Source: Anaerocaecibacter muris (lineage in GTDB: Bacteria > Bacillota > Clostridia > Christensenellales > Pumilibacteraceae). Taken from it: a stretch of DNA of 64,000 nucleotides. Numbering within the stretch: the stretch's first letter is position 1; each line of letters opens with the position of its first letter. A program made the translations under genes and the position numbers. Below the pieces are notes generated by a model that saw only the letters and a list, made by a program, of their open reading frames with translations, did no database searches and was not told the DNA's origin. The stretch spans positions 62,001-126,000 of the forward strand of contig NZ_CALPCE010000004.1 of the NCBI RefSeq assembly GCF_943192945.1. The letters run 5' to 3'. This document shows positions 38,569 to 61,838 of this stretch, piece by piece.

Positions 38569-38795
38569 ATCTTTATTGAACGGATCCATATATTCCTTTA
38601 TGCTTATCTGGTCTGCCATTATATCCTCTTTTTCTTGGTTTCGTATGTATTCCTGTACAGCTTTTTCGTTCTTTCCTACTGTACTCACATAATATCCGCG
38701 ACACCAGAAATCTGTGTGAATTGACCAAAATCCATTTTTTCAATATATTTTTCGGGTGTTTGTTGTACAAAAAGCCAACTTTTCAAAAGACACAA
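38569..38795 (-). pseudogene. IS200/IS605 TnpA transposase remnant
   Basis: Reading the minus strand, F-W-C-R-G-Y-Y-V-S-T-V-G-K-N-E and E-Y-I-R-N-Q-E-K-E-D reproduce the C-terminal part of IS200/IS605 TnpA, including the region of the catalytic Tyr. The N-terminal HUH motif is missing, and the frame changes at a run of six A near 38740. About 150 residues of the usual enzyme are not covered. The rest of 38377-38938 shows only fragments. Confidence 0.7.
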
Positions 38796-38938: not shown

Positions 38939-39756
38939 TTACGCATCTTGGAGTTCGTCGTCCTCTATCACGATACAGTTAACTTTTTTACTGTGAATCG
39001 TGCAAGCATCGAGCGCAATTATCCCGTCGGCATAGTACGGTGAAAAGTCTGCATCAGCCCCAAACTCCGAGCCTTTCTCTTCGAAATGAGAGTGCCCATA
39101 GATGCGTGCCAATGTCCGCACACGATTGTTTTGCCAGGTTCTACGTCGCCTTGGTGCGCTGCCAACATTCCATTGTACCACCGAGCGTATGCCCACCCTA
39201 TTGGATCATCTTCTCTCCAATTAACCTTGTAATTAAACCACAATCCTTGACCGCCAAAGCCACTTGCATCAGATGGAATCCACCCATGCACAAAAATGTA
39301 CCTTTGCGTCTCATAATAATTTTTCATCGCCGAGAGTATCTTAGTGAATACGCCAGACTGCTTCATTTGTTTTGAGACAAAGTCCGGGTATAAAACCATC
39401 TTATTCATTGACGAGCCCGTAATCTGGAGCACGGTATCAACTGTACCATTGGTTTGGTCATGTGAGTATCGTATATCTAATTCGCTCATACTCGGTAGCG
39501 TTTCCACGAAAGAAACCAAGAGGTCTTCGTGATTGCCTCGTATAAGAATAACCTCATCCCGTGCCAAGAGGTCGAGTACAAACTTTTCTATATCCTTATT
39601 TTGTGATCCGCGGTCAAACAAATCACCGCATATAATCAATTTGTGTGGCGATGTATCGGTGTAGTACCCTTTTTCGGTTAGAGCCTCCACCATTTCCTTA
39701 TAGAACCCGTGGGTATCTGCTATAACGTAATATTTCAAGATTTCGTCCTTTTGCAA
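38939..39756 (-). pseudogene. calcineurin-like phosphoesterase, frameshifted near the 3' end
   Basis: From ATG 39756 the metallophosphatase motifs are in order: A-D-T-H-G (about 13), G-D-L-F-D-R-G (about 44), G-N-H-E-D (about 74), H-G-W (about 158) and G-H-W-H (about 215). After G-H-W-H-A-S-M-G the frame changes: the family ending (F-S-P-Y-Y-A-D-G-I-I-A-L-D-A-C) is in the neighbouring frame down to 38939. One G missing from the GGG at 39094-39096 explains it; restored length is 272 residues. All metal ligands precede the break, so residual activity is possible. Related proteins are lambda-type Ser/Thr phosphatases and Ap4A hydrolases. Confidence 0.8.
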
Positions 39757-41201: not shown

Positions 41202-41576
41202 CTATTCCCATTGCTCTTTATAATATCGAATATAGTCCTGCACAAGTTGCGGATGCTGTGCCACCGCCACCTGGCATAATTCATTGAAAAGTTTTACAAC
41301 CTCGTCATTGTAACAATGCTCTAAAAGGCGGTCAAAAAGCCTTTCTATGGTTTGTTCGCTTACTTGCTCGCCTTTTTCGAACAAATGGCACACTGCCGCA
41401 ATTTCGGGCTCACAAATCGAGATAACCGTTTCGGCTATCTTGTTTCTTTCACTAATAAGACAACCGATTTTTTTGTCCATATCCATTACCTCAAAAAGTT
41501 CCTTCCCATCCACCAATCTATCGATTGTATGCTGGCACATATAGGGCGGTAGTGTTCCCTGTGGTTTCTTGGTCAT
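41202..41576 (-). CDS. hypothetical helical protein of accessory element
   Basis: 124 residues from ATG 41576 (a GTG at 41588 is possible). Mostly helical and acidic, with two Cys-containing stretches (S-I-C-E-P-E, E-H-C-Y-N-D) and no membrane segment. Weak ribosome binding site. It is on the same strand as the recombinase cassette and follows it. I do not recognise the family. Confidence 0.5.
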   Translation of the reverse strand: MTKKPQGTLPPYMCQHTIDRLVDGKELFEVMDMDKKIGCLISERNKIAETVISICEPEIAAVCHLFEKGEQVSEQTIERLFDRLLEHCYNDEVVKLFNELCQVAVAQHPQLVQDYIRYYKEQWE

Positions 41577-41659
41577 GGTTATTTGCACTTACCATAATCG
41601 CCGGGCCTACGGAAAGGGGTTTATATACGCCGTGCATGGCGGATATAGCAATGCGGTTT

Positions 41660-41959
41660 CTAATCGGAGCCGTGTTCATAGCTATCGAATGTATCAACAA
41701 ATTTTACAATCTCTCGCGCAAGTTCATCGCTTATATGTAGCGATACGTGCTTTGATAAGTCAAAAAGCATCTCTGTAAGTTTGCCGTATGCTTTGAAACC
41801 TGCCTTTGTCCAATATCGGAATTCGGGAGAAGGCGGATCATAATCACCCGCGCTCCGATTCCCTCCGACATAACCTTCTGCAATAGGCTTTTTCAAGTAT
41901 AATGCACCTTTTAGTCCAAAATGCCTTTGTAGTAGGTCTTCCAATGTAATGTTTTCCAT
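41660..41959 (-). CDS. hypothetical protein of accessory element
   Basis: 99 residues from ATG 41959, chosen because GGAGGCGAAT lies just upstream; the longer frame from 42007 would overlap the preceding gene. Begins M-E-N-I-T-L-E-D-L-L-Q-R-H-F-G-L, a pattern found at the start of small helical mobile-element proteins. No motif gives a function. It is the fifth minus-strand gene after the RecA-like ATPase and probably shares its transcript. Confidence 0.6.
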   Translation of the reverse strand: MENITLEDLLQRHFGLKGALYLKKPIAEGYVGGNRSAGDYDPPSPEFRYWTKAGFKAYGKLTEMLFDLSKHVSLHISDELAREIVKFVDTFDSYEHGSD

Positions 41960-42015
41960 ATTCGCCTCCAAGCAAGTTGAGCTGTTGCATTTTTTGCAAC
42001 AGCTCACATAAAAAA

Positions 42016-42378
42016 TTATCTATCATCGGCAGGAATAAGTTCCGCTTTATTCAGATCGAATAAAACGACATTTTGCCTGATTAAATGCGTACCCAAAACA
42101 CGGTATGACCAGTCCTTATTCCACCCCATTCGTTGTGCCAAAGCATCTACCATACTTTTGCTGTACACTTCCATTCCTATTTCCTCTTTATCTAATGACG
42201 GTGGTACACGGAATGATGTCAAAGTAATCCTGTCGAACGGTTCGAGTATTATAGACGTTACGTCCTGGCTAATACGAAATCGAATAAACCTCGGCATTCC
42301 GATAGCTCGTACCGACTGTTTGTATATGCGTATACAGCTTGTCTTCACATAAAATGATATGTATGTCTGCTCATTCAT
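42016..42378 (-). CDS. companion-domain protein D of serine recombinase cassette
   Basis: 120 residues. The C-terminal half (M-G-W-N-K-D-W-S-Y-R-V-L-G-T, then V-V-L-F-D-L-N-K-A-E) matches the same stretch in the recombinase C terminus (M-D-W-N-P-D-F-N-Y-R-I-L-G-T ... M-T-F-N-L-M-K-A). The N-terminal half has alternating strands with R-F-R-I and S-I-I-L-E-P, equivalent to the I-A-I-R-P of the recombinase. It overlaps the upstream gene by eight bases, so translation is coupled. Likely a DNA-binding or protein-protein module acting in trans with the recombinase; this is inference. Confidence 0.65.
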   Translation of the reverse strand: MNEQTYISFYVKTSCIRIYKQSVRAIGMPRFIRFRISQDVTSIILEPFDRITLTSFRVPPSLDKEEIGMEVYSKSMVDALAQRMGWNKDWSYRVLGTHLIRQNVVLFDLNKAELIPADDR

Positions 42379-42817
42379 TGTTTCTTACAACCTTATCGCC
42401 ATACCATTTTTCGGCATTGGCGAATTCGAAAAGTATCATTACTTTCTTCTCCGCTTGAACCATACGTCCGATTGCTTTGTATCGCGCTTCACTGTCCAAT
42501 CCCCATTCCTCGAATAGTTGACGAGTAAATGTTGCACAGCTTATTTTGCTGTACTTCACCACCTCCTTACCTTTTTTCCAAGCAACAGCATTGGGACTGC
42601 TTGACTGTACCGTACCTATAAGAATAGAACGGGTTTTATGGTTTACCATTATAGAGATTGCCTCACAATTATTTAATGCTATATATGTCGCTTGGCTGAA
42701 AGATATCGAATCATTCCAAATCGACATAGTCGGTGAGCTCATACTACAAAACAATGAGCTGTTTACTACTTGGAAACCGTCGAGATCCAATTGTTTAAGT
42801 GTTGATGCGTCAATCAT
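42371..42817 (-). CDS. companion-domain protein C of serine recombinase cassette
   Basis: 148 residues. Opens with L-D-L-D-G-F-Q-V-V, matching F-D-L-S-G-Y-Q-V-V of the recombinase C-terminal domain, and ends with W-G-L-D-S-E-A-R-Y-K-A-I-G-R and F-E-F-A-N-A-E-K. Same domain layout as the 42814 gene, with more diverged middle (the I-x-R-P-C motif is lost). Overlaps both neighbours (4 and 8 bases). Function unknown; coupled expression with the recombinase is clear from the overlaps. Confidence 0.68.
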   Translation of the reverse strand: MIDASTLKQLDLDGFQVVNSSLFCSMSSPTMSIWNDSISFSQATYIALNNCEAISIMVNHKTRSILIGTVQSSSPNAVAWKKGKEVVKYSKISCATFTRQLFEEWGLDSEARYKAIGRMVQAEKKVMILFEFANAEKWYGDKVVRNNE

Positions 42818-43407
42818 TTGACTTCTCCTCCATTCGTTGAGATATAACCCTCGGCTAAATTAATTTTATATTGCTCTTCATGTTCTTCAACAGGTATGCC
42901 GAAACATTCTCGCCAATCAGCAGGCAAATATGACCGTTTACGTTTTGTACCTGTTCCTACGAACAACTCAAAGTCCGTGAGTTTAAAAAGGTATAAGCCC
43001 TCATTATTATACACGGCGGGTTTACCAAGCATCTTATACCTATATTGCTTATCCCATCCCATAAGCTCGAATAACTTTGCGGCAAAAATTTGGCATATCA
43101 TATCCCTGGCTTTGATTTCTTTTTCGCCGCCTCCGCTTGCCCACCGTAAGGAATCTGGAGCATCGGCATCGCACGGTCGCACGATTAACCGCTTTTCATC
43201 GGGATGTATCAATAATTGAATATGCGTTACCCCAGGGAAACGCTTAAGACACGCCATATTAAATTTAATCTTTGTATCCCAGACTGTTATGGCGGGTTCT
43301 CGCGTATGCGCAAACAATTCCGCCTTTGCGACCTGAAAGCCTGCAAGGTTTACCGTCTCGGCTTCCTCGCCTTCTCTTAATTCTTGAATGTATTCGTTAT
43401 CATTCAT
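42814..43407 (-). CDS. companion-domain protein B of serine recombinase cassette
   Basis: 197 residues and the closest relative of the recombinase C-terminal domain: V-N-L-A-G-F-Q-V-A, I-K-F-N-M-A-C, H-I-Q-L-L-I-H-P-D-E-K-R-L-I-V-R-P-C and M-G-W-D-K-Q-Y-R-Y-K-M-L-G line up with F-N-T-A-C, Y-I-Q-L-L-L-H-P-T-E-R-K-I-A-I-R-P-C and M-D-W-N-P-D-F-N-Y-R-I-L-G. It also keeps the following L-P-A-D-W-R-E-C-F-G segment (recombinase: C-P-E-E-W-E-E-S-F-G). It overlaps the recombinase gene by eight bases. Confidence 0.72.
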   Translation of the reverse strand: MNDNEYIQELREGEEAETVNLAGFQVAKAELFAHTREPAITVWDTKIKFNMACLKRFPGVTHIQLLIHPDEKRLIVRPCDADAPDSLRWASGGGEKEIKARDMICQIFAAKLFELMGWDKQYRYKMLGKPAVYNNEGLYLFKLTDFELFVGTGTKRKRSYLPADWRECFGIPVEEHEEQYKINLAEGYISTNGGEVK

Positions 43408-45238
43408 CTGTAGTTTTTACTCCCGTTCGTATTTGAGTTGCGCTTTCTATTATCTCCTCACGAGATAATAGCGTCAACTGTTGCTGTCCTTCCACATCCC
43501 GGCACTTTACGCTGCTTTGCAGGCTCGGTACGGATTTCAAATAATATAATTCATTGTCCATGCTAAATTCATAGAATTCATCGCCAAAGGATTCCTCCCA
43601 TTCTTCTGGACATATCGCCATTCGACGTTTACGTATCGATTCTTGCTCTTCAGCGTTGGTTATCTCTACAATAGGCATTGCTTTCATAAGGTTGAAAGTC
43701 ATAATGCAATCGGGACCTTTTTCTATCCAAGTACCCAATATCCTATAATTGAAATCGGGATTCCAATCCATTATTTGCATTAACGCTTTAATGAAAAACG
43801 GGCAAGACAGCACCTTAATTAGGACAGGCTCTCCCGTCTTTTTTCGCAACCAAGAAATACTGAAAGCGTCATCCTTTTCGCAAGGTCGAATGGCTATTTT
43901 TCTCTCGGTTGGATGTAGCAGTAATTGTATGTACGAAAAATCTTGCAGTTTCTTTCCGCAAGCTGTATTAAACATTATTTTCTCTGACGATATTGTCATA
44001 CAAGGCAATTCGCTCCGAGCCGTAAGAAATTGCCCTCGTACTACTTGGTATCCAGATAAATCGAATGCACTAAACGCCGACCGACGTATTCTTCGAGCCG
44101 CTGTTTTTCTTTCTTCCACGCTATCCGATGCATTGTAATATGCTGTCGGATCGTCATTTGTCCAACGGTGATTGATTGGCACATACCCTCGAAAAATGCC
44201 GTCATCAATCACTTGCATTACATGAAAACCGCCGCGCATACCGTGACGCCTATTATATAATAGTTGTTGCGCCGCCTCGAATACTTCCACCGATATTATC
44301 GGCTCATGATGATTTTCGTAATAGCATTGATCGCGATTATTGCGATTTTTTTTCTTTTTATGCTCAAATATATCCGCAGTGAAAGTTTTCCAAGTCAGAA
44401 CACTCCCACAATACCTTTCATTACGAATAATGTAGCCTATCGTTCCACTATTCCAATTGGTATTTCCAAGCATAGTCTTTACATTCATTTCTGTGAGCAT
44501 TTCAGCTATTCGTTCCAAAGAAAAGCCCGTAAGAAAAGCATTAAAAATCCAACGGACGATTGCCGCTTCTTTTTCTTCTATTTGCAGTATGCCGTACTTT
44601 ATATAATTCCCTGCTCCATCACGTGGACGCCTATAACCGAATAATTCTGGCGTAAGGAGTTTATTGTGCCTGAAACGTTCATTTAGCGACCAATTCATCG
44701 CCTCGCTTTTCTTTTCCGACTCAGCCTGCGCTATGCTTGCAAACAACGACAGCTTTAATTCCGACTCCTCCGAAAGCGTGTAGATAGAGTCCGTTTCAAA
44801 TAAAACGCCAACAGGTGGAGTTTGACTTTTCAGTTCTCGAACCAACGATAAACAGTCCACGATGTTTCTTGCAAAACGCGAGACGCTTTTTGTTATAATG
44901 AGGTCATATTCGCCCCTTCGACAAGCTGCTATCATTTCATTGAAATTATCTCGATGCTTTAAGGATGTACCAGATATGCCCTCGTCTGCGTAGACGTGCT
45001 TCAAATCCCAATTTTTGTGCGCCCCGGCAAGATGCGAATAATGTTCCTGTTGCAAGACAAAAGAGGACAACTGCTCATCGTTGCCCGTCGATACACGACA
45101 ATATGCGCACACGCGCATTGCTCGATTATCTTCGTGGATATCGATTTTTCTTTGAGCTGGAATTGTCCTTGTCGGAGCATCGTCAGCACTTATTTTGTAT
45201 GCTTGCCGAATTTGGTCACGGCTCTCGTTTTCAACCAT
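43400..45238 (-). CDS. large serine recombinase with atypical C-terminal domain
   Basis: 612 residues. Catalytic domain at about 38-185 (Y-C-R-V-S-T-G-N-D-E-Q with the nucleophile Ser, then S-R-F-A-R-N) and a Recombinase domain at about 200-310 (F-G-Y-R-R-P, I-V-R-W-I-F-N-A-F, I-G-Y-I-I-R-N-E-R-Y). Instead of the usual zinc beta-ribbon with C-x2-C and a coiled coil, residues about 395-560 form a domain repeated as separate proteins in the next three genes. It would integrate, excise or invert DNA at specific att sites. Overlaps its downstream neighbour and follows the ATPase gene by 11 bases. Confidence 0.88.
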   Translation of the reverse strand: MVENESRDQIRQAYKISADDAPTRTIPAQRKIDIHEDNRAMRVCAYCRVSTGNDEQLSSFVLQQEHYSHLAGAHKNWDLKHVYADEGISGTSLKHRDNFNEMIAACRRGEYDLIITKSVSRFARNIVDCLSLVRELKSQTPPVGVLFETDSIYTLSEESELKLSLFASIAQAESEKKSEAMNWSLNERFRHNKLLTPELFGYRRPRDGAGNYIKYGILQIEEKEAAIVRWIFNAFLTGFSLERIAEMLTEMNVKTMLGNTNWNSGTIGYIIRNERYCGSVLTWKTFTADIFEHKKKKNRNNRDQCYYENHHEPIISVEVFEAAQQLLYNRRHGMRGGFHVMQVIDDGIFRGYVPINHRWTNDDPTAYYNASDSVEERKTAARRIRRSAFSAFDLSGYQVVRGQFLTARSELPCMTISSEKIMFNTACGKKLQDFSYIQLLLHPTERKIAIRPCEKDDAFSISWLRKKTGEPVLIKVLSCPFFIKALMQIMDWNPDFNYRILGTWIEKGPDCIMTFNLMKAMPIVEITNAEEQESIRKRRMAICPEEWEESFGDEFYEFSMDNELYYLKSVPSLQSSVKCRDVEGQQQLTLLSREEIIESATQIRTGVKTTDE

Positions 45239-45249: not shown

Positions 45250-46242
45250 TTACTCCGCATCGTCCGATTGATTGTCTTCATCTAATACCCAATACCATCC
45301 GTCCTTTCTTTTAACCGATGCTATATTCAACCGCACTTTTGCTGCATTGACTGTACGCTTGGATATTCCGTTCATTTCGCATTGTTGCAGAATTTGATTT
45401 GCGGAACACTCGCCCGACTCCATATTCTTTTTAATAATAAGGATAGCGTGGTCCGTCTTACTGTATTCATCATCATATGACTCATCCAATACTTGTTCTG
45501 CGGTTATTTTACTTCTTCGCATCCAAGAGACCACCGACTTATTATCCACCGAAAACAGTATTGAATCGCCTAACGGTGCGAGATTGCTTTTCACATGAGA
45601 AAGTACACGCATATTGGGTTGACTGCTCAATTTCGCAACAAGCAAAACACTTCTTGCGGCGGCCGCTATATCAATCGAGCCAAGTCCTCGGTACAGCCCT
45701 TTCCCATTAGCCTTATTCATATGTCCGACCATAATAATCGCGCAATGCCTACGTTCGGCTATGTGCGCCAAATGGTTCATTATAGGTCTAATCGCCCCGG
45801 CACGATTCATGTCGGTATTTGCTCCCCAATAGGCTTGAATCGGATCAAGTATTAACACTCGCGCCCCTGTTTCTTCAATGACTTTTTCCAAGCGCTCATC
45901 GCCGAGTTCAACCGTTGCCTCGTCCTCATCGATATAAGAAACCTTGTCCAAATTCGCCCCACAAGCTATTAAGCGTGGCACGATCGTGTCCTCTTTCCCA
46001 TCTTCGCTATTTTGATATACTACCGCCTGCGGCTCTATCTTTTCGTTCTCTAACGGCATCGGTTCACCGTTGGATATTGCCGCCGCCAGATTAATTGCAA
46101 CCGTAGACTTTCCCTCGCCGGGATCGCCTTGTATTATTGTAATTTTGCCGTATGCGATGTACGGATACCACAGCCACTCGACCGCCTTGGCGTTGACTTC
46201 TTTGTAATATTTAATTGGATAGGGCTGCGTTTTGCTGTCCAT
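45250..46242 (-). CDS. RepA-like RecA-fold ATPase
   Basis: 330 residues from ATG 46242, which has TTGGAGG upstream. Walker A G-D-P-G-E-G-K-S-T (about 38-46), Walker B V-L-I-L-D-P-I-Q-A-Y (about 130-139), and a G-H-M-N-K motif (about 171) match the hexameric RepA/AAA_25 helicase group of plasmids and mobile elements. The C-terminal 80 residues look like a winged-helix domain. It likely unwinds or remodels element DNA during replication or excision. It heads the recombinase operon. Confidence 0.85.
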   Translation of the reverse strand: MDSKTQPYPIKYYKEVNAKAVEWLWYPYIAYGKITIIQGDPGEGKSTVAINLAAAISNGEPMPLENEKIEPQAVVYQNSEDGKEDTIVPRLIACGANLDKVSYIDEDEATVELGDERLEKVIEETGARVLILDPIQAYWGANTDMNRAGAIRPIMNHLAHIAERRHCAIIMVGHMNKANGKGLYRGLGSIDIAAAARSVLLVAKLSSQPNMRVLSHVKSNLAPLGDSILFSVDNKSVVSWMRRSKITAEQVLDESYDDEYSKTDHAILIIKKNMESGECSANQILQQCEMNGISKRTVNAAKVRLNIASVKRKDGWYWVLDEDNQSDDAE

Positions 46243-46268
46243 AAAGCCTCCAATTTTCAACTATAACT

Positions 46269-46424: not shown

Positions 46425-46477
46425 TCAATTTGGCTGCACTCCCAAGTTGGCAGACTACTGAAAAGGAGGTATTTCTT

Positions 46478-46804
46478 ATGTACAGCAACATGACGATTTG
46501 GGATTCGGAACACTTTTTCAAACGGCTCGAATTTGTTCTGGCAGAACACAAAATGTCTTTACACGAGTTAAGTTGTCGGGCGAATATAAATATATCCACT
46601 CTTTATAAAACTCGCGCTAATAAGTCGATGCCCAATCTTCAAACCATTTGCTCTATCTGCGATATTCTCGGCATTAAGCTGTGGGAATTCTTTGCACCCG
46701 AAGATGAAATCACACCCGAAATGCGAAGCGTTATTGCTGATATGCAAAGCATTTCTATCGATGGACAAAGAATGCTGACACAAATGGTGAAGTATATTAA
46801 ATAG
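46478..46804 (+). CDS. XRE-family transcriptional regulator
   Basis: 108 residues. The helix-turn-helix is around residues 15-65 (M-S-L-H-E-L-S-C-R-A-N-I-N-I-S-T-L-Y-K, N-L-Q-T-I-C-S-I-C-D-I-L-G). The C-terminal 40 residues are a dimerisation tail. AAGGAGG precedes ATG 46478. Divergent from the ATPase-recombinase operon, the position of a repressor for mobile-element functions. Confidence 0.88.
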   Translation: MYSNMTIWDSEHFFKRLEFVLAEHKMSLHELSCRANINISTLYKTRANKSMPNLQTICSICDILGIKLWEFFAPEDEITPEMRSVIADMQSISIDGQRMLTQMVKYIK

Positions 46805-47797: not shown

Positions 47798-49384
47798 CTA
47801 CACGGATTCTATAATGTTAACGCCGCATTTAAATTGGAATTCCAACTCGTGCTTGCCGTTAACTTTTATGACATCGACTATCTTACGCATCACATCCCTA
47901 TCCAGACGGTTTTCGCCTGCATTGACAAGTAATTCATATGCCTCATCCAATTTTCGTTGCGCAAGCTGATTTTGCAGGTTTTGCTCGCTGATTACCTTTT
48001 CGCGCTCTTCGAGCTCTATTATCGTTCGGCTGTATTCTTCGTATTTTTTCTCGTACTCGCTCGACGAAATGTAGCCGTCCTTTCGTGCTTTGAATAAATC
48101 CAGGACTTCTTTCCTTGCTTGCATAAGTGCCTCGCGCACTTCCTCGATACCATCGCTTTCATTAACTTGCAAGCCTTCTTGCGTAGATTGCCTTACGATT
48201 TCGATGATTTCGCTTGCATCTCCTATAAGCCGCTCTATTGCGCGTTCGTATGCTGCGTACACGTCATCCTCTTTCAACGGTTTCATTCCACACTTATCTC
48301 GATCCAACTGGTGCGTGATGCATACCCAGGTCGGAACGGACTCACCACTTGCAAGCTTTCTGCTGTTGCGCCTAAACTTGCCTCCGCATTGTCCGCACAC
48401 CAGAAGACCGCTTAAGATGTACTTTTGGCTATATTTTCCTTTCCCTGTTTTCGCGGTCGAACGTAGTGCTTTTCGGTTTGCCTTTTCCGCTTGCGCCATG
48501 TCGAACATCTCCTGGGTGATTATTGCAGGGTGACTGTTCGGCATATAATAACTCGGTGCTTGCCCTTCGTTCTTTACTCGCCGCGGCGATAAAACGTCGG
48601 GTTTGAATGATTTCCCCATGACGGCGTTACCTGTGTACTTATCGTTAGCAAGGATGTTCAGTACGGAATTTGCTTTCCACGGGTATCCGCATTTAGTACG
48701 TTTCCCTTCGACATTTAACATTTCGGCTATTTGCCTTACGGAATCGCCTGCAATATAGCTTCGGAATATAGTTCGAACTATTTCCGCCTCTTCCTCTACT
48801 ATCGCATAGTTATCGCCATCCTTCTTATAACCGAGCGTGTTTGCGTTTATAAGCACACGCCCATCTTTGAATCGCTTTTGGAATGACCACTTAATGTTTG
48901 TTGACATCGTGCGACTTTCTTGTTCCGCCATCGCCGCGAGAATAGTTATAAGCACGTCACCGCCCGCCGTCATCGTGTCTATTTGCTGTGTTTCGAAGAA
49001 TATGCTGATTCCGAGATCGCGGAGTTCGCGCACATACTTTAATGTATCAACTGTATTGCGGCCGAATCGGGATATCGATTTACATAGGATACGATTGATT
49101 TTTCCTGCTCGACAATCATCTATCATACGCATGAAATTCTTGCGTGTTTCGGCGCGAGTTCCCGTTGCACCCCAATCGGCGTAGCCCTCTATGTAGTTCC
49201 ATTTCGGGTTCGACTTTATCTTCGCCTCGAAGTGTTCTTTTTGCCGTTCGTAGGATTCCTCTTGTTCATCGCTATCCGTACTAACACGCGCATAGTAAGT
49301 CACATTTTCTAATGCCGTCACCGCAGTCATGTTCGGACGATATATGGCTGGACGTTCGACTACTATTCTACCGTTTATTGCCAT
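47798..49384 (-). CDS. large serine recombinase (prophage integrase candidate 1)
   Basis: 528 residues. Catalytic domain with Y-Y-A-R-V-S-T-D-S-D-E-Q near residue 30, S-R-F-G-R-N near 105, Recombinase domain around 180-290, zinc beta-ribbon C-G-Q-C ... C ... C near 345-385, and a coiled coil at about 425-495. All conserved parts are present. The start overlaps the end of the next recombinase by 17 bases, so the pair is co-translated and may act together as at some Bacillota prophages. Confidence 0.93.
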   Translation of the reverse strand: MAINGRIVVERPAIYRPNMTAVTALENVTYYARVSTDSDEQEESYERQKEHFEAKIKSNPKWNYIEGYADWGATGTRAETRKNFMRMIDDCRAGKINRILCKSISRFGRNTVDTLKYVRELRDLGISIFFETQQIDTMTAGGDVLITILAAMAEQESRTMSTNIKWSFQKRFKDGRVLINANTLGYKKDGDNYAIVEEEAEIVRTIFRSYIAGDSVRQIAEMLNVEGKRTKCGYPWKANSVLNILANDKYTGNAVMGKSFKPDVLSPRRVKNEGQAPSYYMPNSHPAIITQEMFDMAQAEKANRKALRSTAKTGKGKYSQKYILSGLLVCGQCGGKFRRNSRKLASGESVPTWVCITHQLDRDKCGMKPLKEDDVYAAYERAIERLIGDASEIIEIVRQSTQEGLQVNESDGIEEVREALMQARKEVLDLFKARKDGYISSSEYEKKYEEYSRTIIELEEREKVISEQNLQNQLAQRKLDEAYELLVNAGENRLDRDVMRKIVDVIKVNGKHELEFQFKCGVNIIESV

Positions 49385-50873
49385 TTTTCACCTCTTGCTC
49401 CTTAGCCAATCTTTCTTGCCTTCGTTCCGCCCACCCAGGTCTATTCCCCGATGGACCGTTTGTGTATTCTCTACTGATTCGCGCCCCATTGATGAATACG
49501 AATGTTATGTTGTATGGGACTATTTCGACATGATCCAAGAATTTCTCCACCTTGTCGGCTTCGAACTCGGTTATTGGGACATAATCCGATTTGTCTATTC
49601 CTCGTATTTCGCGCATATCGATGTCGTGCGTTATCTCATCAATCTTTACCTTGAGTTCTTTCCATTCCGCATTATAATCGGCGATTTCTATCATGCGGTT
49701 AATTTTCAGCGCATTCAGTTCGCGTTCTTGTTCAAGTAGTTCGGCTCTTTGTTGCCGCAGTTTAAGCGTTGCGTCATCATTGCCACGCTGTGCTATAAAT
49801 TCGTTATAGCACTCCACAAACTTCTCTTTGAGAACCTTGTCTTTTATTCGCGTGGTGTTGCAGGCCTCTTGCCCGAATGTGTCCTTTTTACAGCATACCC
49901 ACACCTCGACTCGATATGGTAAATTCGGATTTTGCACCTTACGAGTATAGCCGCCGCCACACACTCCGCATCTTATCTTTCCTGTAAACTCATAGTGTTG
50001 CGGAGTCTTGCCGAACTCATTCTCGCTTGCTCTATCGTGCATTAGCTTTTGGACAAGCTGAAAGTCCTCAACGGATATGATCGGCTCGTGCGTATGCTGC
50101 ATATAATATTGCCTTACCTCGCCCTTGTTTCGGATGCTTGCGCCGTCTACAGTATGGTATTTTTGCGAGAGCGCATCACCGATATATTTCTCGTTTGTAA
50201 GGATATATTGTAATGTGCCTCGGCTCCATGTTTCCTTTGTCTTGAATTTCACACCCTCTTTACGGAGTTGCTTACTTATGGCTATCATCCCCATACCGCC
50301 GATATACATTTTGAATATTCTCTTTACTAACTCGGCTTCGGTCGGTTCTATTTCGAGGGTGTTTGTTTCTTTGTTCATCTTGTATCCTAAAATTCCTGCA
50401 CCGACGCTGATATAACCTTCTTTGAATTTTTCTCGCATCGACCACATTTGGTTTTCCGAGTAAATCTTTAGATCATTCTCGGCAACCGATGCGGCTATGG
50501 TTAAAAACACCTCACTATTGGGATTAAAGGTATCGATTTGTTCTTTCTCGAATATAACCTTTACGCCTTCTTCGCGTAATTCCCTTACCATCGTGAGTAA
50601 TTCCTCGGTATTCCTTGCAAACCTTGCGACGGACTTGGTGAAAATCACTTCGAACCGCTTGTCTTTTGCATCGGCTAACATCTTTAATAGCTGCGGTCGT
50701 TTACGCATCCATCGACCGCCTATTCCTGCATCGGCATAGATTCCGCTAAACTCATACTCTTCGCTCTCTGCCATTTGACTCTTCCAATACTCGGTCTGGT
50801 ATCCCAAGCTGTGCATTTGCGCGTTGCTTTTTGTGGAAACCCTACAATATGCAACGGCTTTCTTTTTAAGCAT
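49368..50873 (-). CDS. large serine recombinase (prophage integrase candidate 2)
   Basis: 501 residues. Catalytic domain Y-C-R-V-S-T-K-S-N-A-Q near residue 9, A-R-F-A-R-N near 85, Recombinase domain around 165-270, zinc ribbon C-G-V-C ... C-C ... C near 310-345, and a coiled coil at about 370-420. It ends in a basic tail. First gene of the integrase pair, about 130 bases after the holin region. Confidence 0.93.
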   Translation of the reverse strand: MLKKKAVAYCRVSTKSNAQMHSLGYQTEYWKSQMAESEEYEFSGIYADAGIGGRWMRKRPQLLKMLADAKDKRFEVIFTKSVARFARNTEELLTMVRELREEGVKVIFEKEQIDTFNPNSEVFLTIAASVAENDLKIYSENQMWSMREKFKEGYISVGAGILGYKMNKETNTLEIEPTEAELVKRIFKMYIGGMGMIAISKQLRKEGVKFKTKETWSRGTLQYILTNEKYIGDALSQKYHTVDGASIRNKGEVRQYYMQHTHEPIISVEDFQLVQKLMHDRASENEFGKTPQHYEFTGKIRCGVCGGGYTRKVQNPNLPYRVEVWVCCKKDTFGQEACNTTRIKDKVLKEKFVECYNEFIAQRGNDDATLKLRQQRAELLEQERELNALKINRMIEIADYNAEWKELKVKIDEITHDIDMREIRGIDKSDYVPITEFEADKVEKFLDHVEIVPYNITFVFINGARISREYTNGPSGNRPGWAERRQERLAKEQEVKNGNKR

Positions 50874-52084: not shown

Positions 52085-53149
52085 TTATGCGTTGCCGCCG
52101 TTGAGAATTATAGTGTCGGTCGCGTGGAGAATGGTTTCGCCGTCGGTAAGATCCGTCGAACTTGTCTGTGCAAAATTGTCCGCAAACGATGCTTTCGCAC
52201 GGTCTTCGGTAAAGTATAGATTGTCTTTCTCTTCGATGTCCGCCGTGGTCAATACAACCGCGCCGATTTTTCCGTTGACCGAGTTTATCTTGCAATCGGG
52301 CGATTGCAGTTCAAGCCAATTCTCTAATTTCGATGCCGGGACGGTTTTGAGAATATACGACTTGCTTTCGTCAGAACGTATTGCCACATCGCCCTTTTGA
52401 CAGTTGAGCGCAAGCATTTCTTCTTCGCTCGACACCGCAAACGGCTCCGTTATTGCAATGGGCGGAAGGTACTTTTTGTCTATCTTGCCGCCTGCACCGA
52501 GTTCGAGCAAATCCCCCGCTTTGCTACCGACATTTCTTGCCGCCGCCGTGCCTGCATCGGTTATCTTGGCAAGCGTGAGTTCGGGAATGTCTTCCGCCGT
52601 AAGCAATTCGCTCTTAATGACCAAGCCTTTTTCGTTGATCGTAAACTTGGTAAACGTGCCTTCGGTCGCCCCGCTGTTCTTCAGCACGATTTCGATGTTT
52701 GCGTCTTCGCTACCGTCGAAATCCGCCGAGCCTTCCGCATCCCCGCTTATCTCGATTTTGCGCGGCGTTTTAAGCCTTTGTGCTGTTTCCGCTTCCGCAA
52801 CGACAGCGAGTTCATCCGCCGTTGCGATGCGCGTCCATACCGCCGCCGTATCCGTTTTGGCGATGAGAATGTATATCTTTCCGTCCGCTTGATTGAGCCA
52901 CAGTTCGCCCAAGTCATACTGCGCATCGCTGTCGGTCGGATTGGTTTCCGACAGCACGATGTCGTCCGACAAGTATTTGAGCGACTCCCAATCCGTCGTG
53001 CCGTCGCCCACCTTAATCTTTCGCGTGTCGAGTTCGATGCCTATCTCGCCTTTTAAGAGGACGGGATTTGCCGCCGCCCAATTCGCCGCCGTGTCGTTTC
53101 GCAGTTGTATCCTGCTCTCCAACACTCTTTCCGTTGTTTCGTTAGCCAT
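52085..53149 (-). CDS. phage tail fibre protein
   Basis: 354 residues. Starts with the module I-Q-L-R-N-D-T-A-A-N-W, L-L-K-G-E-I-G-I-E, K-V-G-D-G-T-T-D-W, then a long beta-rich Asp/Ala/Thr region and a C terminus with E-D-R-A-K-A-S-F. Fits a receptor-binding fibre of the distal tail. Overlaps the neighbouring gene by eight bases. No template/variable repeat of a diversity-generating retroelement is seen. Confidence 0.75.
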   Translation of the reverse strand: MANETTERVLESRIQLRNDTAANWAAANPVLLKGEIGIELDTRKIKVGDGTTDWESLKYLSDDIVLSETNPTDSDAQYDLGELWLNQADGKIYILIAKTDTAAVWTRIATADELAVVAEAETAQRLKTPRKIEISGDAEGSADFDGSEDANIEIVLKNSGATEGTFTKFTINEKGLVIKSELLTAEDIPELTLAKITDAGTAAARNVGSKAGDLLELGAGGKIDKKYLPPIAITEPFAVSSEEEMLALNCQKGDVAIRSDESKSYILKTVPASKLENWLELQSPDCKINSVNGKIGAVVLTTADIEEKDNLYFTEDRAKASFADNFAQTSSTDLTDGETILHATDTIILNGGNA

Positions 53150-53462
53150 TTGCGTTACCTCCGTTAATGATTTTTATTTGACTGTAATCCGCGCCGATGC
53201 AAATATACGTTCCCGTAATCTCATCCCATCGGTACGCTCTGTTTGCCGCCGTGTCCATATACACCACGGCTTTATCCCCACGATTAGGAAATGCGTATTT
53301 GCTCGCGTATTGCTGTGGTTTGAGTTTAACTTCTACCGTTCGCAAATCGTTATCCACCACCGTTTCCGCAACGTCGTTTTCCGTTCCCTCGTAGGATCGC
53401 GTAATCGCCTTGAATTCTTCGACGTGTATGCAATCTTCGCAATTGCAATTTTGTTCGCTCAC
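53142..53462 (-). CDS. hypothetical phage tail protein
   Basis: 106 residues. Cys-rich start (N-C-N-C-E-D-C-I-H), then a beta-rich body with A-Y-R-W-D-E-I-T-G-T-Y. The A-Y-R-W-x-x-x-T-G-x-Y unit is common in phage fibre parts. Position between two fibre genes, overlapping both ends; function not known. Confidence 0.6.
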   Translation of the reverse strand: MSEQNCNCEDCIHVEEFKAITRSYEGTENDVAETVVDNDLRTVEVKLKPQQYASKYAFPNRGDKAVVYMDTAANRAYRWDEITGTYICIGADYSQIKIINGGNANG

Positions 53463-53791
53463 TTTGCTATCACCTCCAATTCTTTATCTACAAGCGTGTA
53501 CACATCTTTCCCTTTGCCGCCGATATCTATCGTCAGTTGCATTCGGTACAACAAGCACGAGAGCCGTGCGGTTTCTTCGGCAGTTAGAAACACGAAAAAC
53601 GAATCGCCCGACCACTCGATGCCGTCGGGAAATGTCTTTTCTATGTCGGGCGAACGGTTACGGCGTGCTATCGAAAATGTCAGTTTATCCGAATCGCGGA
53701 TTCGCCAATCGCTCTCTCCCTCGATGGGTATTTTGATATGAAAAAAGGCGATGCTGAATGCCTCGCCTTGCGTTATTATTCGTCTTGACAT
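53459..53791 (-). CDS. hypothetical phage baseplate/tail protein
   Basis: 110 residues, beta-strand rich (F-S-I-A-F-F-H-I-K-I, L-T-F-S-I-A-R-R), with a hydrophilic end. Similar in layout to the N-terminal domains of baseplate upper proteins. It overlaps the fibre gene at 53776 by 16 bases. No firm family. Confidence 0.55.
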   Translation of the reverse strand: MSRRIITQGEAFSIAFFHIKIPIEGESDWRIRDSDKLTFSIARRNRSPDIEKTFPDGIEWSGDSFFVFLTAEETARLSCLLYRMQLTIDIGGKGKDVYTLVDKELEVIAK

Positions 53792-54711
53792 TTTCGCCTC
53801 CTATGACGCCTCGAATCCAAACAGAGATTTTGGCTTAGGTTACCATTTTTCGACGATGTGACATCCCCATTGGTCTTAAACGTGACCGTGGTACGCACGT
53901 CAACATATACTCTCGTGCCAGAGTTGTATGACTGCGTACCATAGACGCCGCTCACTTCGGTTTTGGGTCGAAAGCCTTCGGGCAAAGTAAAAAGTTTCGA
54001 TGTCTTATTGCTTGCAGTCACATAACCTATTACGAGTTTGCCTTGCCGTATGAGGGTAGCATTAGAGACACCGCTAATACTACCCGTTCTAAAACCCAAG
54101 TCGGCGATTTTATCATTCAGCACTTTCCCTTGATATGCGGACAATGCCGCAGTTCGACTTGTCGAAGAAAGGTTATCCACAACGGACACCGAATCGGGAA
54201 CGCTCGGCTTATCTGCAAGGTCGTTGTAACTGCCACTTGTCGCTACCTTATGTAACCCCGTTACTTTGCTTGCTGAAACCGAGTCTATTTTTACATCGGT
54301 CACAGCTCCGTTTGCGATTTTTACGGTCGTTACGGCAAGGTCTTTTATTTTCGACGTTTCCACTGCATTTGCCGCTATCTTCGAAACCGTTACCGCACTC
54401 GATGCTATTTTTGCAGATGTCACGGCTAATGCGTCGATATTCGCCGTGGCAACGGTACTCTTAAACGCGAGAGTACGCAAGTCCGAAAACCACTTTCGTA
54501 CCTTTCCAAAGCCGTCTTTTATGCTTTCTATAGCTGCAATATTATCTCTCGCTTGCGCCTCGGTGCTGTTTACAAACGCATCTTGCACTTGGTCAATAAT
54601 AATCTTTACCTCTTGTAGATAGCGTTCGTTTTCCGCAAGCGTATTAAATATATCGGGTGTTACCTGACTCCCAGCGTGATAATCGTTCTTCGGTATTTTC
54701 CATTTAGCCAT
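53776..54711 (-). CDS. phage tail fibre with repeat stalk, version 1
   Basis: 311 residues. N-terminal block V-T-P-D-I-F-N-T-L-A-E-N-E-R-Y-L (residues about 17-32), then a stalk of short repeats A-V-x-x-x-K-I (about residues 90-150: A-V-T-S-A-K-I, A-V-T-V-S-K-I, A-V-E-T-S-K-I) and a block S-A-S-K-V-T-G-L-H-K-V-A-T-S-G. The C-terminal 130 residues differ from those of the next fibre and should bind the receptor. The gene ends with an arginine-rich tail overlapping the next gene. Confidence 0.78.
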   Translation of the reverse strand: MAKWKIPKNDYHAGSQVTPDIFNTLAENERYLQEVKIIIDQVQDAFVNSTEAQARDNIAAIESIKDGFGKVRKWFSDLRTLAFKSTVATANIDALAVTSAKIASSAVTVSKIAANAVETSKIKDLAVTTVKIANGAVTDVKIDSVSASKVTGLHKVATSGSYNDLADKPSVPDSVSVVDNLSSTSRTAALSAYQGKVLNDKIADLGFRTGSISGVSNATLIRQGKLVIGYVTASNKTSKLFTLPEGFRPKTEVSGVYGTQSYNSGTRVYVDVRTTVTFKTNGDVTSSKNGNLSQNLCLDSRRHRRRKCQDE

Positions 54712-54722
54712 ATTATCTCCTC

Positions 54723-55568
54723 TCAGTACGCCTTACCGAGTTCTATCACTCGCTTTATTGCAGGGCAGCTTTGCCCATTGATTTCGATATATCCTGCATC
54801 GCCATCTAAACCGCCGCCGTCGATTGTTGCATCGCCTTCGGTATAAATACTACCGCCGCCGTGATATACCGCAGTACCATCGTATCCCGTAGTAAGGCAG
54901 ATGATATTGATGTTTGTCATGTGGTCGGCAGCATAGCAATCGCCGGGTATAAGAACACGCAAGGATGCATCTCGCCCAGACCCAAGCGCAATTCCTTCTC
55001 CGACGGCATCACTGAGTTCGACGGCATATCGGTATCCGCCCTTTATGACAAATCCGAGATCGGTATCGAAATAATTTGCATTGCCGCTAAATACCACCGT
55101 TCCCGAACCGCCGCCCAAATTGGGTTTGTTTTTTAAGTCGTTGTAATCTCCGCTCGTCGCTACTTTATGTAGACCTGTGACCTTGCTTGCCGACACCGAA
55201 GATATCTTAGCGTCGGTTACCGCGCTTGCATTTATCTTTGCAGTTGTCACGGAATTAGTGCCGAGCTTCGACGACGTTACCGCATAGTTGTCTATGTCGG
55301 ATGTTCCGACTGTGGACTTAAATGCCAAAGCTTTGAGGTCGGCAAACCATTTTCGTATTTTAGCTATGCACACCTTTAATACCTCCGTTCCGCTTATATT
55401 TGTCCGAGTAGCATACTCGGTACTTGTAATGCTTGCATCTTGCACTTGCTCGGTCGTTATTTTCTTTTCCTTCAAATATCGTTCGTTTTCACCGAGCGTA
55501 TTGAAAATGCTCGGCGTTACCTGCGCCTCCGCCGTATAATCGGTTTTCGGTTCTTTCCATTCCGCCAT
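54723..55568 (-). CDS. phage tail fibre with repeat stalk, version 2
   Basis: 281 residues. Shares the N-terminal block (V-T-P-S-I-F-N-T-L-G-E-N-E-R-Y-L), a shorter stalk and S-A-S-K-V-T-G-L-H-K-V-A-T-S-G with the gene downstream, but the C-terminal part (about residues 150-281, with G-L-D-G-D-A-G-Y-I-E) is unrelated. The duplication with new tip suggests receptor-range diversification. Confidence 0.78.
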   Translation of the reverse strand: MAEWKEPKTDYTAEAQVTPSIFNTLGENERYLKEKKITTEQVQDASITSTEYATRTNISGTEVLKVCIAKIRKWFADLKALAFKSTVGTSDIDNYAVTSSKLGTNSVTTAKINASAVTDAKISSVSASKVTGLHKVATSGDYNDLKNKPNLGGGSGTVVFSGNANYFDTDLGFVIKGGYRYAVELSDAVGEGIALGSGRDASLRVLIPGDCYAADHMTNINIICLTTGYDGTAVYHGGGSIYTEGDATIDGGGLDGDAGYIEINGQSCPAIKRVIELGKAY

Positions 55569-55577
55569 CGTAACCTC

Positions 55578-57353
55578 CTATATTTTTCTACCACGGGTTT
55601 CTTGTTTTAGGCCTCCGTCATAACTGAATTTACTATACTCGCACAAAAGCCGTTGTTTTTCACCAAAACGGTCTATACAGTCATAAGCGAGTCCTATTTC
55701 AAGTTCGGGATTTCCGCGCCACGTAGCCGTTATACTGCCTTGACCTGCCTGCATCTTTTTGAGTAGTACCGTGGCGATATATTCGGCGTGTTCGTGAGAC
55801 TGAACAAGTTCGCTTGCAGGATGCGAATATTCCGCTACGCCGTAGTATTCGATGCTTTCCTCGTCGCGCTTTGTTATCTTACGCGACTTTATTTCGATGG
55901 CATAGCCCGACACCGTAATAATTCCTGTTTGCTGTATAGCCGATGTATTGGTTACCGTACAAGTGCAAGAGTTAACACCGCTTTGAAAGTTGGTTATTCG
56001 CACACTTGCATTATTCGTGACCGCCGAAGCATCGGATATTTCCGACGTGTAATCTATTGTCATGTCTACCGACTGACCTGCATCCAACCGTACCTCGGTA
56101 TCCGTTACGTCTATTACGTCATCGGAGACCGACACATCGCTGTACTCAACGGATATGCTGTTTGCAAACTCGGTCAGCGATACATTCGATGTGTAACCGA
56201 ACGCATTTCCTGGGTGTATTACTATCGGACTGACCGCCGCTACGTCATCTTCGTTGTTTATGCATATTCGGTTTTGTCTATCCACGAATATCTTGCACAG
56301 CCCGGCATTGGCTATTTCTTGTAGCGCATCCCACGCTGCCATTTTAGGCAAGAACGCCAAGTCCACCACGATGTCTTTTAGCATATCGGATATGATATAC
56401 TCATCGGAGCTATGCCCTGTCTTTTGCAAGATATCTTCAGCTATCTCATACAGCGTTGCGTAATATGTGAGCGGAAAGCCAATATACATCTTGGCTTGTA
56501 AGCGCATCAACCTATCCGTTGCGCTGCACTTGACCCACTGACTGTCTTGCTCGATTGACCATTCGTCCGAGTAAAATGTGCCAAGCGCAGTGTACTCTAC
56601 TTTGCCATTGTTATCGACGCCGATAAACGGCAACAACTTGCGATCGAGGAGCATTAGCGTCCGCAAGTAGCCTTTGTCAAACTTGCGGCCTTCGTTATAA
56701 ATGCTGACTGTCATCGTGTCCGAATTGATATTGTAATTCCCCTCTACGGAACATAACTCTTCGCCAACCTCAAACGACTGCAAGGCATTCCCCTCGTATA
56801 TCTCGTACAAACGCTCGTAAAACCGCAAGATTTTGGCACAGGCGTTCGGAATGCTCCATTTGGCTATTGTTAGTCGAACAGATGTGATATCCGCGATTCT
56901 CGGCTCTAACACGCACTCCAAATCGGTATTCCCCTCTATCTTCTCCGTCTTAACAACCACACCGTTCCGCTTATAGTCAACGGTGAAATCCATGGGATAT
57001 TGATTGAGCTTACTATCCCCAATTACCTTCCAATAAATGATTGGGCGGTTCGTGAATTTCAGCTCGATGTACGGTTTATCCGCGAATACTCCATTGTTGT
57101 CGGAAAGCTTTCCACTCCACCAACCGCATAGAACGCTGTCATCCATCATTTGAAAACTGCCGTCCATCGTGGCGTTACCGTCCATAGTACACGCTTTAAC
57201 TGTCGGGACACTCGGCAAGTGATACACTTCGGTCGGATGACTTATTTCCGAATTACCGCTCTCCTCGGTCGTTATATCCCGACTCAATTCTTCATCGGCA
57301 TATATTACTTCAACCTTGCCGTATATCTTTCGAGGATTATCCGAGTACGCCAT
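55578..57353 (-). CDS. phage baseplate/tail-associated protein
   Basis: 591 residues from ATG 57353 (AGAGAGGTAGG upstream). Beta-rich with many W/Y/D residues; the middle carries Y-S-D-E-W-S-I-E-Q-D and T-D-R-L-M-R-L-Q-A-K, and the C terminus H-A-E-Y-I-A-T-V-L-L-K-K-M. The layout and place between distal tail protein and fibres match tail-hub/baseplate proteins (gp27-like) of siphoviruses. A Thr/Ser-rich insert occurs around 400-480. Confidence 0.72.
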   Translation of the reverse strand: MAYSDNPRKIYGKVEVIYADEELSRDITTEESGNSEISHPTEVYHLPSVPTVKACTMDGNATMDGSFQMMDDSVLCGWWSGKLSDNNGVFADKPYIELKFTNRPIIYWKVIGDSKLNQYPMDFTVDYKRNGVVVKTEKIEGNTDLECVLEPRIADITSVRLTIAKWSIPNACAKILRFYERLYEIYEGNALQSFEVGEELCSVEGNYNINSDTMTVSIYNEGRKFDKGYLRTLMLLDRKLLPFIGVDNNGKVEYTALGTFYSDEWSIEQDSQWVKCSATDRLMRLQAKMYIGFPLTYYATLYEIAEDILQKTGHSSDEYIISDMLKDIVVDLAFLPKMAAWDALQEIANAGLCKIFVDRQNRICINNEDDVAAVSPIVIHPGNAFGYTSNVSLTEFANSISVEYSDVSVSDDVIDVTDTEVRLDAGQSVDMTIDYTSEISDASAVTNNASVRITNFQSGVNSCTCTVTNTSAIQQTGIITVSGYAIEIKSRKITKRDEESIEYYGVAEYSHPASELVQSHEHAEYIATVLLKKMQAGQGSITATWRGNPELEIGLAYDCIDRFGEKQRLLCEYSKFSYDGGLKQETRGRKI

Positions 57354-57355
57354 AC

Positions 57356-57712
57356 CTACCTCTCTTTGAAAGACAGCGTCACACTCTTCCACATCATTCG
57401 CGCCTTGACCCAATCGTAATGCGGCATATATGTTAAGCCATCGGAGCGAGCCGTAATTTCTACAAGCTCACCCGTGGCATTGTCGTGAAACTCTATTTCG
57501 GAGAAAGCGCCGCCGCCTATCTCCGCTTGCAGTATCGCCATGTCTTCTTGGCTCATGTATTCCCAACTCAAATCGACCTTACGTTTAGTGCCGATAATGT
57601 CAACTACAAGTGTTCCGTCTGCCGTGCGCTCCGACTTATCCAAGACTTCGGGCGATACGGATATTTCTTTCGGCGGCTTGATCTGCTTACCGTTTATCTT
57701 GAAAAAGTCCAC
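57356..57712 (-). CDS. phage distal tail protein-like
   Basis: 118 residues. Starts D-F-F-K-I-N-G-K-Q-I-K-P-P-K-E, followed by D-L-S-W-E-Y-M-S and F-S-E-I-E-F-H-D. Small beta-sandwich tail proteins with this start commonly lie between tape measure and baseplate genes. ATG 57712 follows a short gap after the tape measure gene; the next gene starts within its end region. Confidence 0.68.
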   Translation of the reverse strand: MDFFKINGKQIKPPKEISVSPEVLDKSERTADGTLVVDIIGTKRKVDLSWEYMSQEDMAILQAEIGGGAFSEIEFHDNATGELVEITARSDGLTYMPHYDWVKARMMWKSVTLSFKER

Positions 57713-57713
57713 G

Positions 57714-60404: not shown

Positions 60405-60437
60405 TTCCCCACCTCCTTATTTGATTTGGTACACGAA

Positions 60438-60466
60438 AAAAGCAAGCACCTTTCGATACTTGCTTT
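60438..60466 (-). terminator. terminator of the ART moron
   Basis: AAAAGCAAG (60438-60446) / CTTGCTTT (60459-60466) stem; on the minus strand it ends in CTTGCTTTTTTCG. It lies between the moron and the tape measure gene. Confidence 0.7.
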
Positions 60467-60486
60467 GTTCTTATTTTGTTATCATT

Positions 60487-60912
60487 TTACGATTTCTTTT
60501 GCTTGTAAATTTCTTTCAAATCATCAATCGCCATTTCAGGTGACATCGTATGAAACATATAATAGTTTATTTTCATTGTTTCTACGGGTGCTTGCTTATA
60601 AATTTTTCTGCTATCTTCACCAGTATAAAAATGCCAATATCTATAAATATATCCCATCCAAAAAAGTTCGTCTTTTGTAAAAAGCGTACCGTGGTGCGTA
60701 AGTAACTGCGCACATTCGTCAGCAAGCTCTTCCATGAGATATTCTTCTCCTGCCCATTGCATACGATTGTATTCCGAATCGAGATTGTGCGCCAAATTCG
60801 AATTCATAAACTGTTTTATAAATGTCACACTGTCATATTCTTTATCTGCGGACATCTCAAACAACCGCCCTTGAATATCGCATAACTTAGACTGCAATAT
60901 ATCCATAATCAT
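60487..60912 (-). CDS. partner protein of ADP-ribosyltransferase fusion (antitoxin candidate)
   Basis: 141 residues, helical and acidic, with W-A-G-E-E-Y-L-M-E-E-L and E-L-F-W-M-G-Y-I-Y-R-Y-W-H segments. It overlaps the upstream gene by four bases (ATGA), the close coupling typical of toxin-antitoxin pairs. I do not recognise the family; the antitoxin role rests on context only. Confidence 0.6.
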   Translation of the reverse strand: MIMDILQSKLCDIQGRLFEMSADKEYDSVTFIKQFMNSNLAHNLDSEYNRMQWAGEEYLMEELADECAQLLTHHGTLFTKDELFWMGYIYRYWHFYTGEDSRKIYKQAPVETMKINYYMFHTMSPEMAIDDLKEIYKQKKS

Positions 60913-61784: not shown

Positions 61785-61797
61785 AGCCGCACTCCGA

Positions 61798-61838
61798 ATA
61801 TAACATTTCGTTTGAATTTATTATATACTATGTTATAT
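61798..61838. promoter_or_regulatory. operator-like inverted repeat of the ART moron
   Basis: ATATAACAT (61798-61806) and ATGTTATAT (61830-61838), 9-bp arms with centres about 32 bases apart, flanking the -10 box. Probably the binding site of the XRE domain. Confidence 0.5.

Follow-up and report, generated by a model that had tools for sequence, protein, structure and literature searches.

Large serine recombinases are single-protein machines in which the direction of recombination depends on a coiled coil and on a small factor encoded separately. In the accessible parts of two reports, serine integrase triplets are described from Streptococcus conjugative elements, with 10 of the integrases lacking the zinc ribbon (PMC4701971), and three serine recombinases from a single C. 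difficile island (PMC6814731). In this study, a 64,000-nucleotide stretch of the Anaerocaecibacter muris genome (the window; NCBI RefSeq assembly GCF_943192945.1, 1.97 Mb, contig NZ_CALPCE010000004.1, positions 62,001 to 126,000) was analyzed, in which overlapping genes named B, C and D lie behind a large serine recombinase gene, R, each of the three encoding a stand-alone copy of the C-terminal domain of R. A literature search, covering few subscription papers, found no account of stand-alone copies of a recombinase's own domains.

A recombinase domain repeated in three coupled genes

R (window positions 43400-45238, minus strand, 612 residues) comprises a resolvase catalytic domain at about residues 42-188 (PF00239, E = 5.9e-24), a recombinase domain at about 222-332 (PF07508, E = 5.5e-26) and a C-terminal domain at about 393-552 that was named by none of the domain libraries searched. 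The active-site residues S50, R48, R121 and R124 are retained in 111 to 113 of 113 R sequences, and serine integrase structures match residues 32-332 of R in VIA-align. With its active site and recombinase (DNA-binding) domain both present, R looks, judging from its sequence, like an intact enzyme. The zinc ribbon PF13408 was not found in R at E values up to 1; the two other large serine recombinases of the window, R2 and R3, match it at 2e-11 and 3e-8. R is therefore regarded as a variant rather than a standard large serine recombinase. In the structural model, examined for a coiled coil of the kind that other large serine recombinases have inserted in the zinc ribbon domain, all helices within residues 333-592 are at most 11 residues long, with an uneven predicted local distance difference test score (pLDDT) in this part. 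The VIA-align rows for R mostly stop near residue 332, three of them (9dxd, 9dxf, 9rae) reaching 587-612, and the method hardly probes the C-terminal part. The C-terminal domain of R, which occupies the place of the zinc ribbon, is predicted to be beta-rich and two-lobed.

B (42814-43407, 197 residues), C (42371-42817, 148 residues) and D (42016-42378, 120 residues), the last being the shortest and most diverged copy, lie behind R on the minus strand, with overlaps of 8, 4 and 8 bases at R/B, B/C and C/D. Coordinates and lengths are as given in the initial annotation, which had also proposed that separate genes supply the C-terminal domain of the recombinase as small proteins, and sequence and profile comparisons bear this out. 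In BLASTP, B matches R residues 393-552 at E = 3e-24 and C matches B at 6e-19, while D matches both R and B at about 1e-5. Shuffling tests (500 shuffles each) gave z values of 38 for R-B, 27 for B-C, 19 for R-C, 9.7 for R-D and 10 for B-D, and just 1.3 for C-D, which is the level of the unrelated neighbouring genes E and F (-1.4 to 1.4). Profile-profile comparisons using family alignments gave probabilities of 100% for R-B (E = 2.8e-51), 99.85% for R-C, 99.1% for R-D and 98.2% for C-D, the negative control (the family of the upstream ATPase A against D) giving 0.1%. As the family profiles match where the pairwise signal is weak, the kinship of D with both C and R is settled. Among the sequence motifs from which the kinship had first been read, two do not hold for D, which begins at the second strand of the domain and lacks both the G-F/Y-Q-V-V start and the R-P-C core. 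AlphaFold2 models B with a block at residues 41-150 (pLDDT 80-94).

Profiles of the R domain and of D, run against PDB sequences, gave no match, and the top VIA-align row for the B/C/D domain is a weak match to the transcription regulator MraZ. An AbrB/MraZ homology, considered from the strand order and this row, was rejected at profile probabilities below 1%, leaving a weak hint of the tandem swapped-hairpin DNA-binding fold of that group. Foldseek against the PDB returned at best sliding clamps (E = 9e-3, TM 0.12), a result judged meaningless; against BFVD it returned uncharacterized phage proteins at a probability of 1.00 with a best E of 5.5e-4.

Conservation and variable partners of the module

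The R-B-(C)-D module is conserved across Clostridia and their phages. With B as bait, relatives were collected from 5 of 151 genomes (among them the source genome and one whose match is a stand-alone relative), from 21 of 50,697 phage and 1 of 72,556 plasmid records, and from 66 genome-contig loci retrieved through a single peptide pattern; one of the scans contributed the best 80 of 122 relatives. The titles of the 66 contig loci name Clostridia or their families, some just Bacillota or Firmicutes, one Selenomonadales and one an uncultured bacterium. Removal of 24 overlapping sub-loci from 178 sequences left 154, of which 137 carry an R of more than 450 residues and form 96 clusters at 90% identity, the 17 without such an R being uncounted. 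Copies were counted in the 89 clusters having at least 600 bases behind R. At least two stand-alone copies directly follow R in 84 of these (two in 58, three in 26), one in three, and none within 60 bases in two; in L064 and L142, which lack such a chain, copies are present more than 60 bases past the R frame. Because B had served as bait, the collection was repeated with R: among the best 80 of at least 565 matches, 63 had enough DNA, on many of the same contigs as before, and 61 of these have at least two copies behind R (44 two, 17 three), the other two having one. Open reading frame starts were set mechanically, and overlap sizes outside the window are upper limits. Counting the source genome and stand-alone relatives, a B profile search detected the domain in 12 of 391 genomes from the class and in 4 of 398 from the phylum. 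The gene order first proposed, ATPase-recombinase-copies, therefore holds widely for the recombinase and its copies, and the upstream ATPase A is present in just 31 of 96 loci.

In a domain tree of 88 sequences from 24 of 86 loci plus five stand-alone relatives, C forms a clade of its own (100/99), which includes one sequence labelled D from a locus showing just two copies, and D forms another (97/84), with which the stand-alone relatives group. B is a group at 90/66, a support that is not firm, and R makes up two adjacent branches. The position labels need 5 changes on this tree, compared with 49.6 when shuffled. Pairwise distances correlate with those of the R catalytic half at 0.88 for B and 0.76 for D (86 loci), at 0.85 for the R C-terminal half and 0.58 for C (27 loci), and at 0.54 for the neighbouring helix-turn-helix (HTH) gene (77 loci) and 0.41 for A (24 loci). 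The separate tree groups and the distance correlations show that B, C and D are old, specialized and largely inherited with R.

The genes around the module vary. A resolvase catalytic domain on its own, 160-246 residues long, lies directly upstream of R in 16 distinct loci (L074-L076, L078, L079, L081, L082, L087, L088, L095, L099, L141, L163, L166, L171 and L177). None of the 16 keeps the nucleophile serine, and the equivalents of R48, R121 and R124 are kept in 15, one and three of them. The existence of these dead catalytic domains means that both ends of the recombinase occur as separate proteins in the family, though not in the window. A was not found in 14 of the 16 loci, L095 and L099 carrying both. 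An HTH-family gene is present in the compared stretch of 86 of the 96 loci, at a median of about 1 kb upstream of R. Behind D, two extra genes occur, the first in 48 and the second in 47 of the 96 loci; the second is DUF6551 in the three examples scanned, which by its motifs may be ParB-like.

Further large serine recombinases flank the module in about half of the 96 clusters (three in 1 cluster, two in 35 and a single one in 15, against 45 clusters without any), and none was found in 17 of the 31 clusters with long flanks on both sides. Thirteen whole records were inspected for integration enzymes, with positions matched by hand; the recombinases of a record need not be parts of one element. 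The distance between R and a tyrosine recombinase is about 3 kb in L067, about 12 kb in L046 (whose contig also has a short serine recombinase frame) and 17 kb in L063; three in a row lie 9-12 kb from R in L058 and L061 (G913:C49:42008-45754 and G914:C12:426963-430707). L106 has a serine recombinase pair 44 kb from R, and neither a tyrosine nor a further serine recombinase was found on the contigs (25-143 kb) of L041, L048, L071, L078, L080 and L085. In the plasmid record OY725878 (L028), a tyrosine recombinase lies 4.5 kb from R and another serine recombinase about 60 kb away. This 247-kb circular record, labelled as a Subdoligranulum variabile plasmid, carries A, a small domain weakly matching resolvases (E = 8e-5), R, B and D at OY725878.1 209077-214112. 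Because the accompanying integration enzymes vary in this way, R-B-(C)-D is taken to be a unit of its own and not merely a part of a machine with R2 and R3.

Among the 17 sequences without a long R, six were inspected (L031, L039, L047, L086, L100 and L157), of which L039 and L157 are cut by contig ends. In L047 (9244-11866), R has shrunk to its C-terminal domain (152 residues) and is followed by four stand-alone copies instead of three.

The prophage and its ends

The module had first been read as a cassette. It does not stand alone: it is part of a tailed prophage, in which two ordinary serine recombinases are encoded as well. The prophage occupies about 38950-64000 of the window, the left limit being approximate and the true end perhaps lower, and extends to at least 91.5 kb from the window start. 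Homology to other copies ends at 38952-38966, and a related prophage in a genome of the same family (Pumilibacter, G020) is mostly collinear with 38966-91460, save one insertion in G020. The tail and neck genes together with this collinearity indicate a prophage of at least 52 kb carrying R-B-C-D, and a free mobile cassette is ruled out by the tail genes to the right and by the matching related prophage.

A (45250-46260, minus strand) is a RadA/RepA-type ATPase (AAA_25; PF13481, E = 1.1e-27) located 11 bases upstream of R. Its family matches RadA (2e-11) and RepA (1.8e-6) among PDB sequences, and its best PHROG is a DNA transposition protein (E = 1.8e-18) with primase families close behind; a second A-like domain occurs in a separate 654-residue protein of the prophage. 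Divergent from A-R-B-C-D is a gene for a Cro/CI-type HTH regulator (46430-46804, plus strand; PF13443, E = 9e-9), beyond which lie R2 (47798-49384, minus strand, 528 residues) and R3 (49368-50873, minus strand, 501 residues). R2 and R3 are ordinary large serine recombinases with PF00239, PF07508 and PF13408, and their genes overlap. R3 is followed on its right by genes for tail fibre, tape measure, tail terminator and neck, the tail genes spanning 52085-63790. The tail protein at 52085-53149 carries a major tropism determinant N-terminal domain (Mtd_N, E = 1.2e-15); Mtd-type proteins are known targets of diversity-generating retroelements. Behind D, the small genes E (41660-42007) and F (41202-41588), both on the minus strand, are unrelated to the domain at the shuffle level; E has a homologue after D in the Pumilibacter prophage (L029:12935-13234), and F has homologues downstream of D in L015, L016 and L029.

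In the Pumilibacter prophage (G020 C3:94380-119935, L029 and neighbours), an insertion of about 25.5 kb splits R at the YADEG motif, with GACGAG at both junctions; a 540-residue large serine recombinase inside the insert adjoins the 3' part of R. In L102 (3232-6400), cargo genes lie between R2 and the HTH gene, and the near-identical phage L103 lacks about 4 kb there, where the end of the last cargo gene is joined to the start of R2. A 460-residue cargo protein of L102 weakly matches the PADLOC candidate HEC-07 (E = 1.3e-6).

No convincing direct repeat between the two prophage ends was found in the window genome. A common end, TTTYRGTCAANACACGCA, is present in the near-identical phages L102 and L103, in L104 and in the Pumilibacter prophage, after which the flanks diverge, three of the four opening with a terminator-like hairpin (by eye). 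It lies on the R operon's side of the prophage, with a second TTTTGGTCA-like copy 42 bases inside, and it is a possible site of the proposed reaction. A second perfect copy of the end was not found in six records, four of which are contigs and possibly fragments, and mismatched matches were at the level of a reversed control. In serine integrase reactions the two half-sites differ, so the lack of a second perfect copy is as expected for such enzymes. Repeated transposon-like insertion was rejected, as the six records hold no second perfect end copy. Between the prophage end and the phosphofructokinase gene, a frame at 38600-38750 resembles an IS200-type tnpA (by eye). The sole window match to TTTYRGTCAANACACGCA, with 2 mismatches, falls in this tnpA-like frame and was taken as chance; apart from it, the window holds no copy of this end. 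No conserved empty site by the phosphofructokinase gene was found, its neighbours differing among the sister genomes compared.

A possible multi-protein recombinase and known systems

We give a probability of roughly 0.4 to the reading that a temperate tailed phage here encodes a heteromeric serine recombinase, R-B-C-D, in which R is controlled by B, C and D as its DNA-binding or architectural subunits. In such a system, the operon would be expressed early, once repression is lifted, and R would assemble through like domains with B, C and D and, in phages that have either, with A or the dead catalytic domain. The small subunits might bind or bridge sites at the ends of the phage DNA, replacing functions of the zinc ribbon, the coiled coil and the directionality factor. 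R would then recombine phage DNA upon induction only, most likely for excision or circularization, with integration left to R2 and R3 or, in other phages, to a tyrosine recombinase.

Several observations weigh against this heteromeric recombinase. A is optional (31 of 96 loci), and for DNA binding by B, C and D the fold match to MraZ is weak. The domain also occurs without R, as stand-alone relatives of 116-136 residues at five places (L031, L244-L247) and two weaker ones (L248, L249), with neighbours including spoIVA, flavin reductase and GNAT acetyltransferase genes; no resolvase match was found in the fetched stretches of L031, L244 and L245. In L086, B and D are present although the 20.6 kb of this locus gave no resolvase match, and L100 has copy fragments without R. 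These relatives and loci indicate that the domain is wider than the recombinase. The initial annotation had named small genes without any recombinase as evidence that would speak against its proposal, and this is partly the case. Within the window's own branch (27 loci), the correlations with R are 0.64 for B, 0.66 for D, 0.61 for the HTH gene (22 loci) and 0.56 for A (17 loci), so that the contrast between B or D and the HTH gene is small there.

Alternatively, R could join R2 and R3 as a third enzyme in a single integration machine, merely helped by B, C and D. Three serine recombinases do lie within 8 kb here, the flanks of 35 of the 96 clusters hold two additional large serine recombinases and those of one hold three, and the Streptococcus triplets, as far as the accessible text describes them, include 10 zinc-ribbon-less integrases (PMC4701971). 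However, the HTH gene and A separate R from R2 and R3, 17 of the 31 long-flank clusters lack another large serine recombinase, and several R loci lie near tyrosine recombinases or have neither kind elsewhere on the contig, making this account rather unlikely. Likewise unlikely is a role of the module in replicating phage DNA, in resolving multimers or in partition, with A as a helicase and R resolving or opening DNA at a replication site marked by B, C and D. A matches RadA and RepA, the module adjoins the repressor gene, and about half of the loci carry the two genes after D, the second being the possibly ParB-like DUF6551 in three examples; yet most loci lack A, R is by sequence a strand-exchange enzyme, and the A-like domain of the 654-residue protein means that A is not the prophage's sole helicase-like ATPase.

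The remaining explanations are harder to sustain. Were B, C and D transcription regulators of the phage switch, akin to chromosomal stand-alone proteins and joined to R by chance, then the presence of two or more copies behind R in 61 of 63 R-bait loci (from the best 80 of at least 565 matches) would be surprising, as would the closer co-variation of R with B than with the repressor gene over all loci, which is unclear in the window's branch. This idea, which draws on the grouping of the chromosomal relatives with D, on MraZ as the top, weak VIA-align row and on the adjacent repressor, is quite improbable. Least likely is a transposition-like process, in which A would select targets as MuB or TnsC do and R with B, C and D would insert the phage at many sites. 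It would suit an ATPase-recombinase pair adjoining the repressor gene, a best PHROG for A of DNA transposition protein with primases close behind, and four related prophages that differ in their flanks but share one end, where two TTTTGGTCA-like repeats are spaced by 42 bases; but no second perfect end copy was found in the six records, four of them possibly fragments, A is optional, and differing flanks also fit site-specific integration in different hosts.

Among known systems, phages of Ca. Heliusvirales, a group with nine shared core genes (PV036424, PV036458 and PV036453, compared in the recombinase region), share the R-B-D order and two opposite-strand serine recombinases, with no A or C found and two other genes after D; R, B and D are annotated there as hypothetical proteins. 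The words integrase and recombinase are absent from the accessible main text of the Heliusviridae paper (PMC9226167). CcrA, CcrB and CcrC are detectably similar to R in the shared domains, but R scores 81, 69 and 65 bits against the NCBIfam models of CcrB, CcrA and CcrC, whose cut-offs are 900, 700 and 900, and is thus not a Ccr protein; to our knowledge, the Ccr systems have no genes like B, C and D. Like the Streptococcus elements, in the accessible description (PMC4701971), the prophage has three serine recombinases, some of such enzymes lacking the zinc ribbon. Unlike in those triplets, R lies apart from R2 and R3, carries a new domain accompanied by B, C and D, and belongs to a tailed prophage; the three genes share an orientation but are not in tandem, since R2 is separated from R by the HTH gene and A.

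Compared with large serine recombinases of the phiC31, Bxb1, A118/LI and TP901-1 type, R is alike in the key catalytic residues and the recombinase domain, and differs in having no detected zinc ribbon and a new C-terminal domain, of which the operon holds two or three further copies. By analogy, recombination directionality factors, which bind the integrase and switch on attL x attR recombination, are small trans-acting phage proteins, as B, C and D may be; we know of none that is a copy of the recombinase's own domain, a contrast drawn by description only. Tentatively, R-B-C-D may be the first serine recombinase holoenzyme built from trans-acting, specialized copies of its own domains, sometimes with a dead catalytic subunit and optionally with a RadA-type ATPase, a multi-protein layer of control that would stand in for the zinc ribbon, the coiled coil and the directionality factor of standard large serine recombinases. 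If so, the same chemistry would be controlled in another way, through a new domain and dedicated subunits, and separable subunits would become available for genome-engineering enzymes, in place of the single-protein design of the known large serine recombinases.

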